From a virus, in the IMG/VR virus record IMGVR_UViG_3300032342_000062, positions 1 through 25,388 of that record: a stretch of DNA of 25,388 nucleotides; one strand, given 5' to 3'. Below are positions 4,431 to 9,000 of the stretch, piece by piece. The position numbers and the translations under genes were made by a program. Below the pieces are notes generated by a model. That model saw nothing but the letters and a program-made list of their open reading frames with translations. It was not told where the DNA came from and did no database searches. Numbering within the stretch: position 1 is the first letter of the stretch; the number at the start of each line of letters is the position of its first letter.

Positions 4431-5749
4431 GGTTCCCCCTTTTCCGCATGAACGAAAGTTTTTATTTTTTCAACAAGCGAATCGATCTCGATTGCATCAT
4501 AACAAACAGGGAATTCCTCTCTTGCAAACTGGCAAGGCTCAAAGCCGTGGGAGCAACAGGGGGCACAGGAAGCGGGCGAATCGATCCACCGAGCGAGCGG
4601 GTAGGTTCCGCATCGAATCCGCCCAGGGAAGGCCCCGAAGATTCCAAAGGTAGGAACGCCCTGGGCGTTCGCAATATGCAATGTACCCGTATCTACCGAA
4701 ATGCAAGCGGAAGCCAGGGAAGCGACGGCCACAAGATCAGCCACGGAACGGGAAGCTTCCGAAATATTAAAAACCCGATTTCTATACTTGCAACTTTGAA
4801 CAAGAAAATCGTTTTCTTTTGCTTTCCCTGGAGAATCACAAATTACGATCGGCTTTTTCTGGGCTTCGCAAAGCTTGTCCAGAAGGGCAAGTTTCCACAC
4901 TGGGCGGGGCGTTCGAATTATGGAATTCGAATTCAGTTGAACGAGAATAAAATCGGAAACGGGGCGGGTGGGATTGAAAACTGTAAGCCCCTGGAAAAGC
5001 TTTTTGAATTCGGCCACCCTGGAAGGATCGGGAGCCAGGGAAGGGTTCAAGCAAATATCGGGAATTCCCGTATTCGCCCACCGATTAAAAAGCTTGTATA
5101 TATTTTCCGTTTCCGCTTCTTTGCATTTTAGGATAATTGAATCGAAGGCCAGGTGATAATCGGCCCTATAAAAAAATTTCGCATTGAACGGCACGTTTAT
5201 AATTTCATCGACAAAAGGAATATCAAGCTTTTCGATTATGCTTTGCCGTTCGAATAGCGGGCGGGCGTTCAAAGGAATTCCCGCTATAATATAACAGGAA
5301 GGATAACGCATTTTTAAAAAGCGTAAAATCGGTTGCGAAAAAAGAATGTCGCCGAGCCCTATTCCATACATCCAATAAAGCAAAATTTTTTTCGATAAGT
5401 CTTCCCCACGGTATCGCTTTATTTTTCGACGCATCTTATCGGTGGGAATAATGCAATGGCCCACCTGGTCGTAAAGCTCCATAAAATGTTGGAGATCGAC
5501 GAACCATTCGGAGCCCTTCGACATTTTCAGTTTGAACCCGCCCTTATCGAAAGAGCAATCGATGTCTTTTTTCACGCCCAGGATCACCATTTCAGGCGGA
5601 AAGCTTTTGAATTCTTCCAGGGTTTCGACCTTCCCGCCGAAGATAAGCTCCAGGTCGTCCAGGGAATAACCAAGCTTTTGAAATATCGAAAACTGAATTT
5701 CGTTTATTTCAAAGCCCGTTCCTTTTTTATATGCTATCTCTCCCGTCAT
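4418..5749 (-). CDS. GT9-like glycosyltransferase (heptosyltransferase family) with extra N-terminal domain
   Basis: This 443-residue protein has the heptosyltransferase layout from about residue 119. A KILLYWMYGIGLGDILFSQP segment carries the N-terminal GxGD motif (D134). A later VDTGTLHIANAQGVPTFGIF segment matches the nucleotide-sugar-binding D-x-G-x-x-H motif. A Cys-rich CAPCCSHGFEPC stretch follows, often seen in this family. In bacteria GT9 enzymes add heptose to lipopolysaccharide core or related glycans. The first ~115 residues are not explained by GT9 and look like a separate alpha/beta domain. It starts 1 bp after the stop of a small membrane protein, with GGGGG upstream. The likely role is modifying a host envelope glycan. 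Acceptor and sugar donor are not known. Confidence 0.8.
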   Translation of the reverse strand: MTGEIAYKKGTGFEINEIQFSIFQKLGYSLDDLELIFGGKVETLEEFKSFPPEMVILGVKKDIDCSFDKGGFKLKMSKGSEWFVDLQHFMELYDQVGHCIIPTDKMRRKIKRYRGEDLSKKILLYWMYGIGLGDILFSQPILRFLKMRYPSCYIIAGIPLNARPLFERQSIIEKLDIPFVDEIINVPFNAKFFYRADYHLAFDSIILKCKEAETENIYKLFNRWANTGIPDICLNPSLAPDPSRVAEFKKLFQGLTVFNPTRPVSDFILVQLNSNSIIRTPRPVWKLALLDKLCEAQKKPIVICDSPGKAKENDFLVQSCKYRNRVFNISEASRSVADLVAVASLASACISVDTGTLHIANAQGVPTFGIFGAFPGRIRCGTYPLARWIDSPASCAPCCSHGFEPCQFAREEFPVCYDAIEIDSLVEKIKTFVHAEKGEPCKI

Positions 5750-6544: not shown

Positions 6545-6758
6545 CTTCGCCCCCCTCGTCGCAGTCTTGCATTTCGGCGGGCTTATCCCAGGTAATAAGC
6601 GATTCGCTTTTGCACGAACAGATTTCGGCAAAGACGGTCGATTCTGATCCTGGGTGGCCGCTTGCCAACGCTTCCGCTTCGGCTTTTGCTTCCTGGACGG
6701 TTTTAAAAAAAGGTTCGATCGATGCGGACAAAGAACTATTTGTTACAAGAAATCTCAT
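6534..6758 (-). CDS. Hypothetical small phage protein (74 aa)
   Basis: This 74-residue protein starts [31 protein letters not shown] and ends in an acidic tail. The [16 protein letters not shown] segment is a short amphipathic helix. Two cysteines in ICSCKSE (about residues 46-49) are close together. Small proteins of this type occur in phage early regions, but I know no function. GGGGGA precedes the ATG, and the start overlaps the pentapeptide-repeat gene's stop (ATGA). It also overlaps the VRR-NUC start by 11 bp, so the three are probably translated together. Confidence 0.65.
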
Positions 6759-7405
6759 TTTTCCCCCTTCCAGATTGTTTTGATAAATTTTATCATGGCT
6801 TTGTAGTTTTTTCCATGTTCATTGTTGCCGTGAGCTTCTTTAACTTTTTTCTCGAATTCCGAGATGGAACCCCAAAAACAACCGCAATTAATCGTTATGG
6901 ATTTTTTCAATTTAAAACAGATCGTAAAACCACCCCTCGAACCAATATTTCCGATCTGTTTTATATCTTCAATCGGATTTTCTTTATCCAAAAGGTAGGC
7001 CCTCGAAAGGTAGGCCCCCGAAAGGTAGGCCCCCGAAAGGTAGGCCCTCGAAAGGTTGGCCCTCGAAAGGTTGGCCCCCGAAAGGTCGGCCCCCGAAAGG
7101 TTGGCCCCCGAAAGGTCGGCCCCCGAAAGGTTGGCCCCCGAAAGGTAGGCCCCCGAAAGGTTGGCCCTCGAAAGGTTGGCCCCCGAAAGGTTGGCCCCCG
7201 AAAGGTCGGCCCCCGAAAGGTCGGCCCTCGAAAGGTTGGCCCCCGAAAGGTTGGCCCTCGAAAGGTCGGCCCCCGAAAGGTCGGCCCTCGAAAGGTTGGC
7301 CCTCACTTTAATTCCAACTTCCAGAGTAATTTTGATTGTATTATTTTCACAATCGTGAAAAAATAGAATCGAGTTAGTTATCCAACTTTTAATTTCAATT
7401 TTCAT
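6755..7405 (-). CDS. Pentapeptide-repeat protein
   Basis: This 216-residue protein has a short N-terminal part ([31 protein letters not shown]), about 21 uninterrupted pentapeptides of form A(N/D/Y)LS(G/R) at residues ~34-138, and a C-terminal domain (about 139-216) with [12 protein letters not shown], a Cys and a helical end. The repeats should form a right-handed quadrilateral beta-helix. Some relatives mimic DNA and bind gyrase (Qnr, MfpA), but most have no assigned role. Repeat regularity is unusually high here. ATG 7405 is chosen because AAAAGGGGGAAAA directly precedes it. It is the first backbone gene after the attC array, 24 bp from the last site. A phage anti-host function is possible but unproven. 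Confidence 0.85.
6994..7304. repeat. 15-bp tandem repeat array (about 20.7 copies) inside the pentapeptide gene
   Basis: Twenty perfect-length units of plus-strand form GGTNGGCCCYCGAAA run from 6994 to 7293, with a partial unit after. Only two positions vary: N (A, T or C) and Y (T or C). On the coding strand both are first codon positions, giving N/D/Y and G/R. The remaining 13 bases, including every wobble base, do not change. Confidence 0.95.
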
Positions 7406-7428
7406 TTTTCCCCCTTTTAAATTGCTTC

Positions 7429-7490
7429 GCATAACGTATCAGGCATGTACGCCGTCTGGCTTTGCAGATGGCGTACTGCCGTTGTTAGAT
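7429..7490 (-). repeat. attC-like site E (last of array)
   Basis: On the minus strand R'' is ATCTAAC (a full RYYYAAC match, 7484-7490) and R' is GTTATGC (7429-7435). The interior pairs: 7442-7445 with 7477-7480, 7447-7453 with 7470-7476, and 7455-7458 with 7465-7468, with an unpaired T at 7446 and a T/G pair between. This 62-bp imperfect hairpin is the best attC candidate here. Confidence 0.82.
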
Positions 7491-7559
7491 GCTGTTTGCG
7501 GTTGCGCACACGACGTGCGCTTCCGCCGCCGCCTATAATTTAAGAGCCGCAAAAATTGC
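7436..7559 (-). other. ORF-less mini-cassette
   Basis: The interval between R' of site D (7560-7566) and site E keeps a cassette-type leader (ATTATAGG at 7532-7539, minus strand) but has no ORF longer than a few codons. A further GC-rich hairpin (GCGCAC/GTGTGCGC, about 7505-7522) is present. It looks like a cassette that lost its gene or never had one. Confidence 0.45.
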
Positions 7560-7931
7560 AGCTAACGTTTGCGGCATTATGAAGCCGCCGAGCATTATTC
7601 CAAATAACAAATATGTTTGCTAAGGCGTTTAGCATATTCAATTTCATTGCGGGTCGAATCGCCGATATACCCGCCAACATTCAAAACCAAAATTTCATCA
7701 GCCAAATCAATTTTTCGCTTATGCAATTCATCCAAGCGGATTTTGTCGGCGACCGTAAGGCCAAGTCCATCATCACTTTTAAAATCACAACCGATAGACA
7801 ATACGATTTTACCTGTTAAGGTAAGATTCAAATTGGCCTTACGGAACGCTTTGTAAAAGCGTGTTGACCCGCACAAGCAAACAACTGTGGGGCGAGGCGG
7901 TTTGGGCGAAGCCATAATGCCGCTGTTGGTG
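7560..7931 (-). repeat. Split attC-like site D with a coding insertion in its loop
   Basis: R' is GTTAGCT (7560-7566), next to AACGTTTGCGGC as in sites A and B. The matching R'' side (GCATCCACCAACAGCGGC, minus strand) lies at 7919-7936. The arms at 7571-7581 and 7913-7923 are an 11-bp perfect inverted repeat. The loop of about 330 bp encodes most of the 173-residue protein, whereas ordinary attC loops are a few to about 100 bases. Confidence 0.55.
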
Positions 7932-8116
7932 GATGCGGCGGCGTTCAACTGTTGGTCTTGCGCGGCATCTGCCTCTAATAAAATTCTTTCAACAATTTCA
8001 AAACCGTGAATGACACCAATTAGGTGCTCATCGCCGTGCTTTTTATCAAGAAGCTGCTGATATTTTGACCTTTGTAAAAAAACAGAATACATAATTTCAT
8101 TTCTTATTGCATTCAT
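7595..8116 (-). CDS. Cassette ORF: nucleoside 2-deoxyribosyltransferase-like domain with foreign N-terminus
   Basis: This 173-residue protein has two parts. Residues 1-61 are helical and unrecognised. Residues ~75-173 (VVCLCGSTRFYKAFRKA, then LSIGCDF, then LHKRKIDLADEILVLNVGGYIGDSTRNEIEYA) match a small Rossmann-like family related to nucleoside 2-deoxyribosyltransferases, common in phages. CGSTRF would bind the nucleotide sugar, and the D/E-rich LADE and GDSTRNEIEYA segments are the expected active-site region. The join (STNSGIM, residues 62-68) is encoded by the R'' arm of site D. M68, encoded by the arm, could be a separate start (7915). The leader carries ATTATAGGAGCGCG just before ATG 8116. 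The role may be nucleotide or base salvage, by inference. Confidence 0.75.
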   Translation of the reverse strand: MNAIRNEIMYSVFLQRSKYQQLLDKKHGDEHLIGVIHGFEIVERILLEADAAQDQQLNAAASTNSGIMASPKPPRPTVVCLCGSTRFYKAFRKANLNLTLTGKIVLSIGCDFKSDDGLGLTVADKIRLDELHKRKIDLADEILVLNVGGYIGDSTRNEIEYAKRLSKHICYLE

Positions 8117-8145
8117 TCCGCGCTCCTATAATTAGCCGCCGTTTA

Positions 8146-8177
8146 CACCAACGTTCGACAAATGTGCGCCGTTAATC
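8146..8177 (-). repeat. Degenerate attC-like site C
   Basis: R' reads GTTGGTG (8146-8152) and R'' GATTAAC (8171-8177, overlapping the preceding gene's stop). Only 32 bp separate the outer ends and the stem is weak, so this is probably a deletion remnant of a full site. The GAACGTTGG context matches the other sites. Confidence 0.4.
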
Positions 8178-8438
8178 AAAAACGCGACCACACCACGCAC
8201 AATATTTTTGAGTAGAAATGGGCTTACCATCCTTGCACATAACACATGGCGCACTTTGTTTGTTGGTTGATGTCGCGCCGATCTTAGAATCTCCAAAAAT
8301 TCTTTTTTGTAAATCTCCAATATATTTCAAATAGCCCTCAATAATATCCAATTCTTCCTCTGCTGCTTTAACAAGAGGGGCATTTTTGTTGTTTGTTGTT
8401 ATTTTAAGGTCTTCAATAATTCTTCTCATTGCTTTCAT
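8172..8438 (-). CDS. Cassette ORF: small protein with C-terminal zinc ribbon
   Basis: This 88-residue protein has an amphipathic helical N-terminal half (MKAMRRIIEDLKIT... EEELDIIEGYLKYIGDLQKRIF) and a C-terminal CVMC-x11-CAWC motif (C65, C68, C80, C83), a typical zinc ribbon of four cysteines. No named family is recognised. ATG 8438 is chosen because GAAAGGAAAC sits just upstream, and the longer start at 8471 would lie inside attC site B. The stop codon overlaps the R'' end of site C, as is usual for cassettes. The AT-rich codon use differs from the phage backbone. It may bind nucleic acid or protein, but no function is assigned. Confidence 0.65.
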   Translation of the reverse strand: MKAMRRIIEDLKITTNNKNAPLVKAAEEELDIIEGYLKYIGDLQKRIFGDSKIGATSTNKQSAPCVMCKDGKPISTQKYCAWCGRVFD

Positions 8439-8465
8439 GTTGTTTCCTTTCTTCGGCGCGATTTC

Positions 8466-8543
8466 AACCAACGTTTGCGCTATGCTGACGTGCCGGTATT
8501 TCCGGCATGTGGCTTTAGCCCTTGCAGCATGGCGCTGTTAGGT
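8466..8543 (-). repeat. attC-like site B
   Basis: R'' is ACCTAAC (full RYYYAAC match, 8537-8543) and R' is GTTGGTT (8466-8472). Outer arms pair GCGC with GCGC and ATGCTG with CAGCAT. Two inner hairpins (GGC/GCC and TGCCGG/CCGGCA) make up the rest. The 78-bp length is within the usual range. The end of the 69-residue ORF lies inside it. Confidence 0.78.
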
Positions 8544-8724
8544 GCTGTTCCGGTTTTGCTTCCACTGTTTTCAGGGCGCGCATTGCTTCGGCCAGTTCGT
8601 TAAAGCACGATCCAGGCCATGCGTGTGCGTACCCCTGTCGTTCGCGACACTCGTTTTCTTCTACCATAGCTTCACGTTCGCATATTAACGCTTGCAGCTC
8701 GATCAATTTGTCTGTTTCTGTCAT
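8515..8724 (-). CDS. Cassette ORF: small hypothetical protein (69 aa)
   Basis: This 69-residue protein is acidic and helical (MTETDKLIELQALICEREAM at the start), with an AHAWPGSCFNELAEAMRAL middle. The last nine or so residues (LTAPCCKG) are encoded by the R'' side of attC site B, so its tail comes from the recombination site. ATG 8724 follows ATTATAGGGGCGCGCAA. The in-frame ATG at 8772 would lie in attC site A and is less likely. No family is recognised. It looks like one of many short, phage- or plasmid-type unknown cassette genes. Confidence 0.6.
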   Translation of the reverse strand: MTETDKLIELQALICEREAMVEENECRERQGYAHAWPGSCFNELAEAMRALKTVEAKPEQHLTAPCCKG

Positions 8725-8766
8725 TTGCGCGCCCCTATAATAAATGGTTTTCAAAACCGGAATTGC

Positions 8767-8820
8767 ATGCAACGTTTGCCCTATGTTGCCGTTTCCAATG
8801 GCACAATGGGGCTGTTGTCG
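8767..8820 (-). repeat. attC-like site A (first of array)
   Basis: R' side is GCAAACGTTGCAT (core 8767-8773), R'' side CGACAACAGCCCC (core 8814-8820). The arms GCCCCATTGTGCC and GGCAACATAGGGC pair imperfectly around a short loop, with bulged bases as in attC. R'' and R' each deviate from consensus at one or two positions, so it is less certain than B and E. Confidence 0.6.
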
Positions 8821-8838: not shown

Positions 8839-9000
8839 CTAGTGTGTTTTTGCACCGTTTTTTTGTTGTATCCAAGCATCTAAAATTAATCTGCATTGGG
8901 CATCGAAAGTTCGATATTCTTTTTCTGCAATTTTCTGCAATTTTTCTTTCGTTTCGCTGGACAATCGAATTTTTATGACTTCCATTTTTTCAGTTTTCAT
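8839..9000 (-). CDS. Ribbon-helix-helix (Arc/CopG-like) DNA-binding protein
   Basis: ATG 9000 to TAG 8839 gives 53 residues. The layout is the minimal RHH fold: a strand (MEVIKIRLSS, residues 6-15), helix A (SETKEKLQKIAEKEYR) and helix B (TFDAQCRLILDAWIQQK). Such proteins bind DNA as dimers with the strand in the major groove, often as autorepressors. It overlaps the previous gene's end by 11 bp and is followed, 18 bp later, by attC site A. Two adjacent 10-bp direct repeats overlap the -35 of the upstream promoter and could be its operator, by inference. It may equally be a cassette gene that has fused to the operon, or an antitoxin. Confidence 0.72.
   Translation of the reverse strand: MKTEKMEVIKIRLSSETKEKLQKIAEKEYRTFDAQCRLILDAWIQQKNGAKTH

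Follow-up and report, generated by a model that had tools for sequence, protein, structure and literature searches.

Genes and Hairpin Sites in the Window

The DNA that was analysed (the window) is an entire IMG/VR virus record, a linear 25.4-kb fragment of 25,388 bases. Profile matches revealed genes for a terminase, a portal-head protein and a RecT protein, which together identify the window as part of a tailed phage. Megablast of the window against cultured phages gave zero matches, and scans for Rfam families, tRNA and tmRNA gave none either. No relatives of the terminase or of the 99-aa cassette protein were found in IMG/VR, and in the RecT relatives of this phage the array region is not syntenic. 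The region from 7429 to 8820 is located within a leftward run of small genes (early operon), and here five hairpin sites, designated A to E, delimit small cassettes (Table 1). The gene that follows site A (6755–7432, minus strand) codes for a pentapeptide-repeat protein and contains about 20 near-identical 15-bp DNA repeats, the number of which is likely variable.

Table 1. Sites, ORFs and leader elements of the array, listed in the direction of transcription. E-values refer to the family covariance model R1 and are rough, because its calibration was short; scores are those of the arm-plus-pairing scan.
Feature	Position	Strand	E-value (R1)	Scan score	Remarks
ORF upstream of site E	8839–9000	-			Small protein of ribbon-helix-helix/Arc-like type (weak matches to RHH_1 and to Arc-like PHROG); either the first cassette or part of the backbone
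Site E	8767–8820	-	2e-14	52	R'' CGACAAC, R' GTTGCAT; stem GCCC/GGGC; 40-nt loop
Cassette E–D ORF (69 aa)	8515–8724	-			Stop codon within left arm of site D
Site D	8466–8543	-	5e-16	63	R'' ACCTAAC, R' GTTGGTT; stem GCGC.ATGCTG/CAGCAT.GCGC
Cassette D–C ORF (88 aa)	8172–8438	-			CxxC zinc-ribbon-like end; runs through left arm of site C, stops in its loop
Site C	8146–8268	-	3e-11	41	Extra A in right arm
Cassette C–B ORF (173 aa)	7595–8116	-			In-frame linker ASTNSG at R''
Site B	7560–7931	-	0.06 (right half)	63	Arms GCGGCATTATG/CATAATGCCGC; 358-nt loop; dG -24.7
Junction and leader CCGCAAACGTTAGCTGCAATTTTTGCGGCTCTTAAATTATAG	7533–7574	-			Identical 42 nt in relative L186, there before a different cassette
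Leader hairpin GCGCAC-GTCGT-GTGCGC	7498–7514	-			Located between B and A, in a cassette that has no ORF
Site A	7429–7490	-	1.2e-4		R'' ATCTAAC, R' GTTATGC; extra A in right arm; terminal site of the array

A preliminary description of this DNA had placed five sites on the minus strand, and all of them proved to be real. The extent given there for site B was kept: it spans 372 nt because its long loop holds most of the C-terminal half of the 173-aa ORF, a half that is related to hypothetical phage proteins. Site C had been described as 8146–8177 and was corrected to the extent listed in Table 1, since its left arm lies further upstream, inside an ORF encoding ..TSTNKQSA... The layout of site D is near-identical in the relative L188.

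Detection of the Sites by Motifs, Arm Pairing and Covariance Models

Common R'' and R' motifs, which had been taken as evidence for the sites, occur at about chance level in the window when up to two mismatches are allowed (14 matches to GCAAACGTTRG versus 11.6 expected, and 16 matches to RYYYAACARCGSC versus 16.8 expected). The R' boxes of the window (GTTATGC, GTTAGCT, GTTGGTG, GTTGGTT, GTTGCAT) keep the GTT core and otherwise deviate from GTTRRRY in one or two positions; that of site A had been read as GTTRG and is in fact GTTATGC. Full RYYYAAC matches in R'' are found in sites A and D instead of B and E. On the minus strand, sites D, E and B follow the pattern AAC-A-GCSS...SSGC-AAAC-GTT, and their stem tetramers (GCGC/GCGC in D, GCCC/GGGC in E, GCGG/CCGC in B) show compensatory differences. 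Paired, covarying arms are present in all five sites of the window and in 87 sites of the phage family described below. It is this combination of boxes and paired arms, together with the existence of relatives, that argues against chance, while the motifs alone prove little.

For an arm-plus-pairing scan, arm profiles learned from 26 sites of other phages were combined with the pairing energy. As nulls, 60 Markov copies of the window reached at most 33, and 1.34 Mb of viral DNA from elsewhere, in which 80 intI-bearing viral contigs were included, reached at most 31.5; the score of site B is well above both values. Of 300 Markov copies, 0.3% attained the arm score of 30 that was obtained for site A. 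Independently of the window, we built an Infernal covariance model (R1) from 30 sites of other phages. R1 detected sites D, E, C and A, and the right half alone of site B, the loop of which is too long for the model. In the relatives R1 gave 67 and 65, altogether 132, matches; no matches were obtained in 13 RecT phages and in 8 intI loci with canonical attC.

A second covariance model (R2) is based on 18 attC sites adjacent to intI genes and is narrower than the model of IntegronFinder. It recognised 42 sites in 22 other intI loci, and gave no match in the window even at E <= 10, nor in nine related phage arrays. A broader attC model such as that of IntegronFinder might accept some family sites. 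In strict scans for canonical motifs and arms, site A alone passed in the window, being its sole strict RYYYAAC...GTTRNRY match with strong arms, and clear canonical sites were detected in several intI loci. This was a first hint that most sites in the window are not attC. Conversely, the arm-plus-pairing scan of the 80 intI-bearing viral contigs revealed no family sites.

A Phage Family with the Same Cassette Platform

The array is not the lone cluster it was initially taken for, but one of a recurrent phage family. About 20 IMG/VR contigs, with lengths of up to 253 kb and a GC content of 0.29–0.57, carry the same cassette platform. A first pattern scan of viral sequences yielded 12 contigs, which is about the chance expectation, and the three true relatives among them were L185, L186 and L188; in L186 and L188 the arrays are convergent with terminase genes. 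Scanning for the R' box together with the leader gave 18 contigs, nearly all of them true relatives, and a last scan added L239 and L241. Three other contigs from this last scan (L240, L242, L243) contain no family sites and represent chance matches. L200 and L209 are unconfirmed as members of the family.

The largest family arrays comprise 21–27 sites. In L202, taken from the 253-kb contig, the scan counts no fewer than 21 sites over about 7 kb, and the covariance model counts about 27. N6/N4, C5 and MT-A70 DNA methyltransferases are found among the cassette cargo, and the leaders are the most conserved stretches of the arrays. The cassette leader was not found in cultured phages and plasmids. 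A host search by the leader pattern in 388 and 297 bacterial genomes, representing two phyla, and in 18 intI genomes gave no match.

In two different phages, genes for related 71-aa proteins (..IEV..F.KLSS.KLFDKLI...QQEFYNSLP) are located just before the arrays (L246, 4455–4670; L249, 3053–3268). These proteins, and likewise the product of the ribbon-helix-helix gene before site E of the window, are possibly a linked regulator or accessory factor.

Architecture of the Family Sites

In 44 of the 87 family sites an extra-helical base, mostly a G after six pairs, is present on the right (R'-side) arm, and in 5 sites on the left arm. In contrast, a one-base bulge is on the left (R''-side) arm in 34 and on the right arm in 3 of 51 attC sites beside intI genes. 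Extra-helical bases on the R''-side arm, as expected for attC, are thus not the rule in the family sites. In 51 of the 87 sites one spacer measures 1 nt and the other 4 nt. Arms pair at 10.2 of 12 positions, compared to a mean of 6.45 and a maximum of 6.81 when arms were re-dealt 200 times among the sites, a difference that is somewhat inflated because the sites were partly chosen by pairing energy. The AAC and GTT boxes are retained while the stems vary.

Almost all sites with long loops (46 of 48) are read through by the ORF of the cassette, so that the site encodes the C-terminus of the cassette protein. Across the left box, where a linker of the STN.QS type is often encoded, the ORF remains in frame, and its stop codon is in the loop or shortly ahead of R'. 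Sites C and B of the window are read through in this way, and the left arm of site D bears the stop codon of its ORF.

Sites that are up to 96% identical stand between unrelated neighbouring genes in the family arrays. Chromosomal integrons also have near-identical sites between unrelated genes, and for this reason we do not claim that such sites are independent site modules. Sedentary chromosomal integrons (e.g., Vibrio superintegrons) resemble the family as well in having unrelated small genes lined up in long arrays, with sites that are similar to each other, but the family resides in phages of very different GC content, lacks IntI and has a mirrored site polarity.

With the attC/IntI cassette arrays and the CALINs of phages (Qi et al. 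2023, PMC9892861) the family has in common co-directional small cassettes with one ORF each, foldable sites of the R''/L''...L'/R' type with AAC/GTT cores, an exchange boundary at the GTT of R', DNA methyltransferase cargo, and no adjoining integrase gene. It differs from them by the extra base on the R'-side instead of the R''-side arm, by the spacers of 1 nt and 4–5 nt, by the silence of the canonical attC model, by loops of about 115–150 nt (up to 358 nt) that code for protein C-termini, by common TTATAGG leaders and by arrays of at least 20 sites in large phages. Considering the silent R2 model, the extra base on the opposite arm and the asymmetric spacer, the designation as attC of the known kind is not supported as stated, and the sites rather appear to form a separate, mirrored class. 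According to published work (PMC6393395), strand choice depends mainly on the extra-helical bases, and the mirrored base therefore offers a natural test of strand choice in hairpin recombination.

Two cassettes of L202 (coding strand, 4484–4627 and 5332–5474) have unrelated N-termini and share a site, 94% identical between them, that encodes one common C-terminal tail (TASTPCQ.HEWLRLGK). It looks as if tails of proteins had been swapped along with the sites.

Traces of Cassette Exchange

A comparison of arrays between related phages, as it had been suggested for this locus, revealed the same leaders, different cassettes and block boundaries at R'. When the arrays of different phages were compared, 22 of 92 homology blocks began at most 4 nt upstream of R' (C|GTTRG), versus a mean of 0.7 and a maximum of 5 in 2000 random draws, with many of the blocks sharing one leader and thus not being independent. 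The same leaders stand before different genes across phages; a leader encoding MANSEIIGAGQDT, for example, precedes N6/N4 as well as C5 DNA methyltransferases in different phages. In L185 (100–763) an exact tandem duplication of a 335-bp cassette is cut at R' on both sides, and this is apparently the trace of a recent cassette reinsertion. In silico, the exchange boundary thus coincides with the R' box (G|TT), as in attC. This pattern is the signature expected of integron-type cassette exchange at R'. The R' boundaries and the block exchange in relatives speak for the earlier view of an integron cassette array without integrase in a phage, the part of that view which did not hold being the assignment to known attC. 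The position of the extra base, which is in the right arm, led us to consider recombination at the left box as well; the L185 duplication and the block boundaries favour the right (R') box.

Recombinase Genes in the Family

In agreement with the preliminary description, no IntI is encoded in the window, which is a linear 25.4-kb fragment, and in 19 relatives none was found above the cut-off. This absence is weak evidence, since most contigs of the family are fragments. A complete integron, consisting of an intI gene with the IntI-specific insertion and attI, was detected neither in the window nor in the 19 relatives.

Among these 20 records the sole match to Pfam Phage_integrase is in G019/L212, directly before the array. 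The gene codes for a XerA/XerC-like recombinase of 279 aa and is located immediately upstream of the first cassette, with the attI-like GAGTAGTTGGAGTGCAAT in between. Comparison to XerA/XerC-like tyrosine recombinases (PDB 4a8e, 5hxy) and to IntI4 (2a3v) indicates a full-length tyrosine recombinase that is related to both. It is devoid of the IntI-specific insertion, and it reaches 142 bits with the integron integrase model versus a cut-off of 265. First boundaries that are attI-like and have no left arm were seen in L186, L210, L212 and L241, and not clearly in the window. Judged by its sequence and position, the Xer-like enzyme is a candidate for the recombinase of the array; it could also be the integrase of that phage itself. 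Its role is put forward as a hypothesis, because no relatives of the enzyme were found in IMG/VR or in other records of the family.

IntI-like full-length proteins are encoded on at least 80 IMG/VR contigs (L105–L184), some of which may be mis-sorted bacterial DNA, and canonical attC arrays are present on some of them (L105, L126, L140). IntI appears to be more common in viral contigs than the few cultured examples suggest.

A Model for the Array and Its Alternatives

Our data suggest that the window, part of an uncultured tailed phage, probably contains within its leftward early operon an array of five integron-like sites around small cassettes. The array would belong to a family with its own class of sites and would rely on a tyrosine recombinase acting in trans. 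A cassette begins at the R' box (C|GTTRNNYGNAAT), followed by the TTATAGG leader with a ribosome-binding site and by one short ORF, and ends with the hairpin site. The tyrosine recombinase, probably other than classical IntI, may be provided by the host or by a co-infecting phage and would cut at R' on folded single-stranded DNA. Phage replication may expose such single-stranded DNA and allow the sites to fold. Swapped cassettes may help against host defence, as DNA methyltransferases recur in the relatives. A further-reaching version, which we consider less likely than not, is an integron analogue that belongs to the phages themselves and combines mirror-image hairpin sites, a non-IntI Xer-like tyrosine recombinase and a translated site as swappable C-terminal module, so that a single event would swap entire genes or protein tails between unrelated phages.

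It is rather unlikely, in our view, that the sites are divergent ordinary attC, with the phage having picked up a CALIN from the chromosomal integron of an unsampled host and classical IntI still recognising the sites. The R' boxes GTTATGC and GTTAGGC and the R'' box GCACAAC do occur in both family and canonical sites, and near-identical sites between unrelated genes are known from chromosomal integrons as well. Moreover, CALINs are on record for phages, and IntI1 recombined five of the six phage attC sites that were tested (PMC9892861). Evidence against this origin comes from the silence of R2 in the window and nine relatives, the mirrored extra base and the 1/4 spacer. Nor were family sites present in the 80 intI-bearing viral contigs, IntI in the family contigs, or the leader pattern in the 388 and 297 bacterial genomes searched in two phyla or in the 18 intI genomes. 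The position of the hairpins between co-directional small genes and the strong conservation of the leaders would also fit transcription terminators or mRNA-end structures, with the homology blocks stemming from general homologous recombination at conserved leaders. Unlike terminators, 46 of the 48 long sites have an ORF running through their left arm and loop, and there is no T-run pattern. Blocks starting exactly at R', the L185 duplication cut at R' on both sides, and AAC/GTT boxes that are kept while stems are variable make this explanation very improbable. A reading as chance palindromes and ordinary coding sequence would fit the chance frequency of single motifs with two mismatches; it is refuted by the covariance model and scan statistics and by the recurrence in about 20 contigs, and can practically be dismissed.

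Qi et al. 2023 (PMC9892861) described 17 CALINs in phages, including methyltransferase cassettes, and recombination of phage attC by IntI1. Since phage CALINs were already reported there, the array of the window is to be seen as a variant of them. New here are the mirrored class of sites, loops that code for protein, the repeated occurrence in uncultured phages, some of them large, and a possible non-IntI recombinase. Should this view of the family be correct, long exchangeable arrays of accessory genes are shared by tailed phages, large ones included, across unrelated genomes by site-specific recombination. This would provide a direct route for the spreading of anti-restriction methyltransferases and of uncharacterised small proteins. 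It would also generate phage mosaicism that could escape current integron searches, as far as these are tuned to ordinary attC.

A second type of hairpin, with a varying stem and a conserved 5-nt loop GTC(C/G)T, is present within cassettes and always on the coding strand. Four other 5-nt loops tested in the same way gave 0 hairpins in family DNA, compared to 12 hairpins with the GTC(C/G)T loop in 206 kb of family DNA and 10 in 1.34 Mb of control DNA. The GTC(C/G)T type occurs in the window and in L186, L188, L199, L202, L205, L207, L211, L212 and L250.
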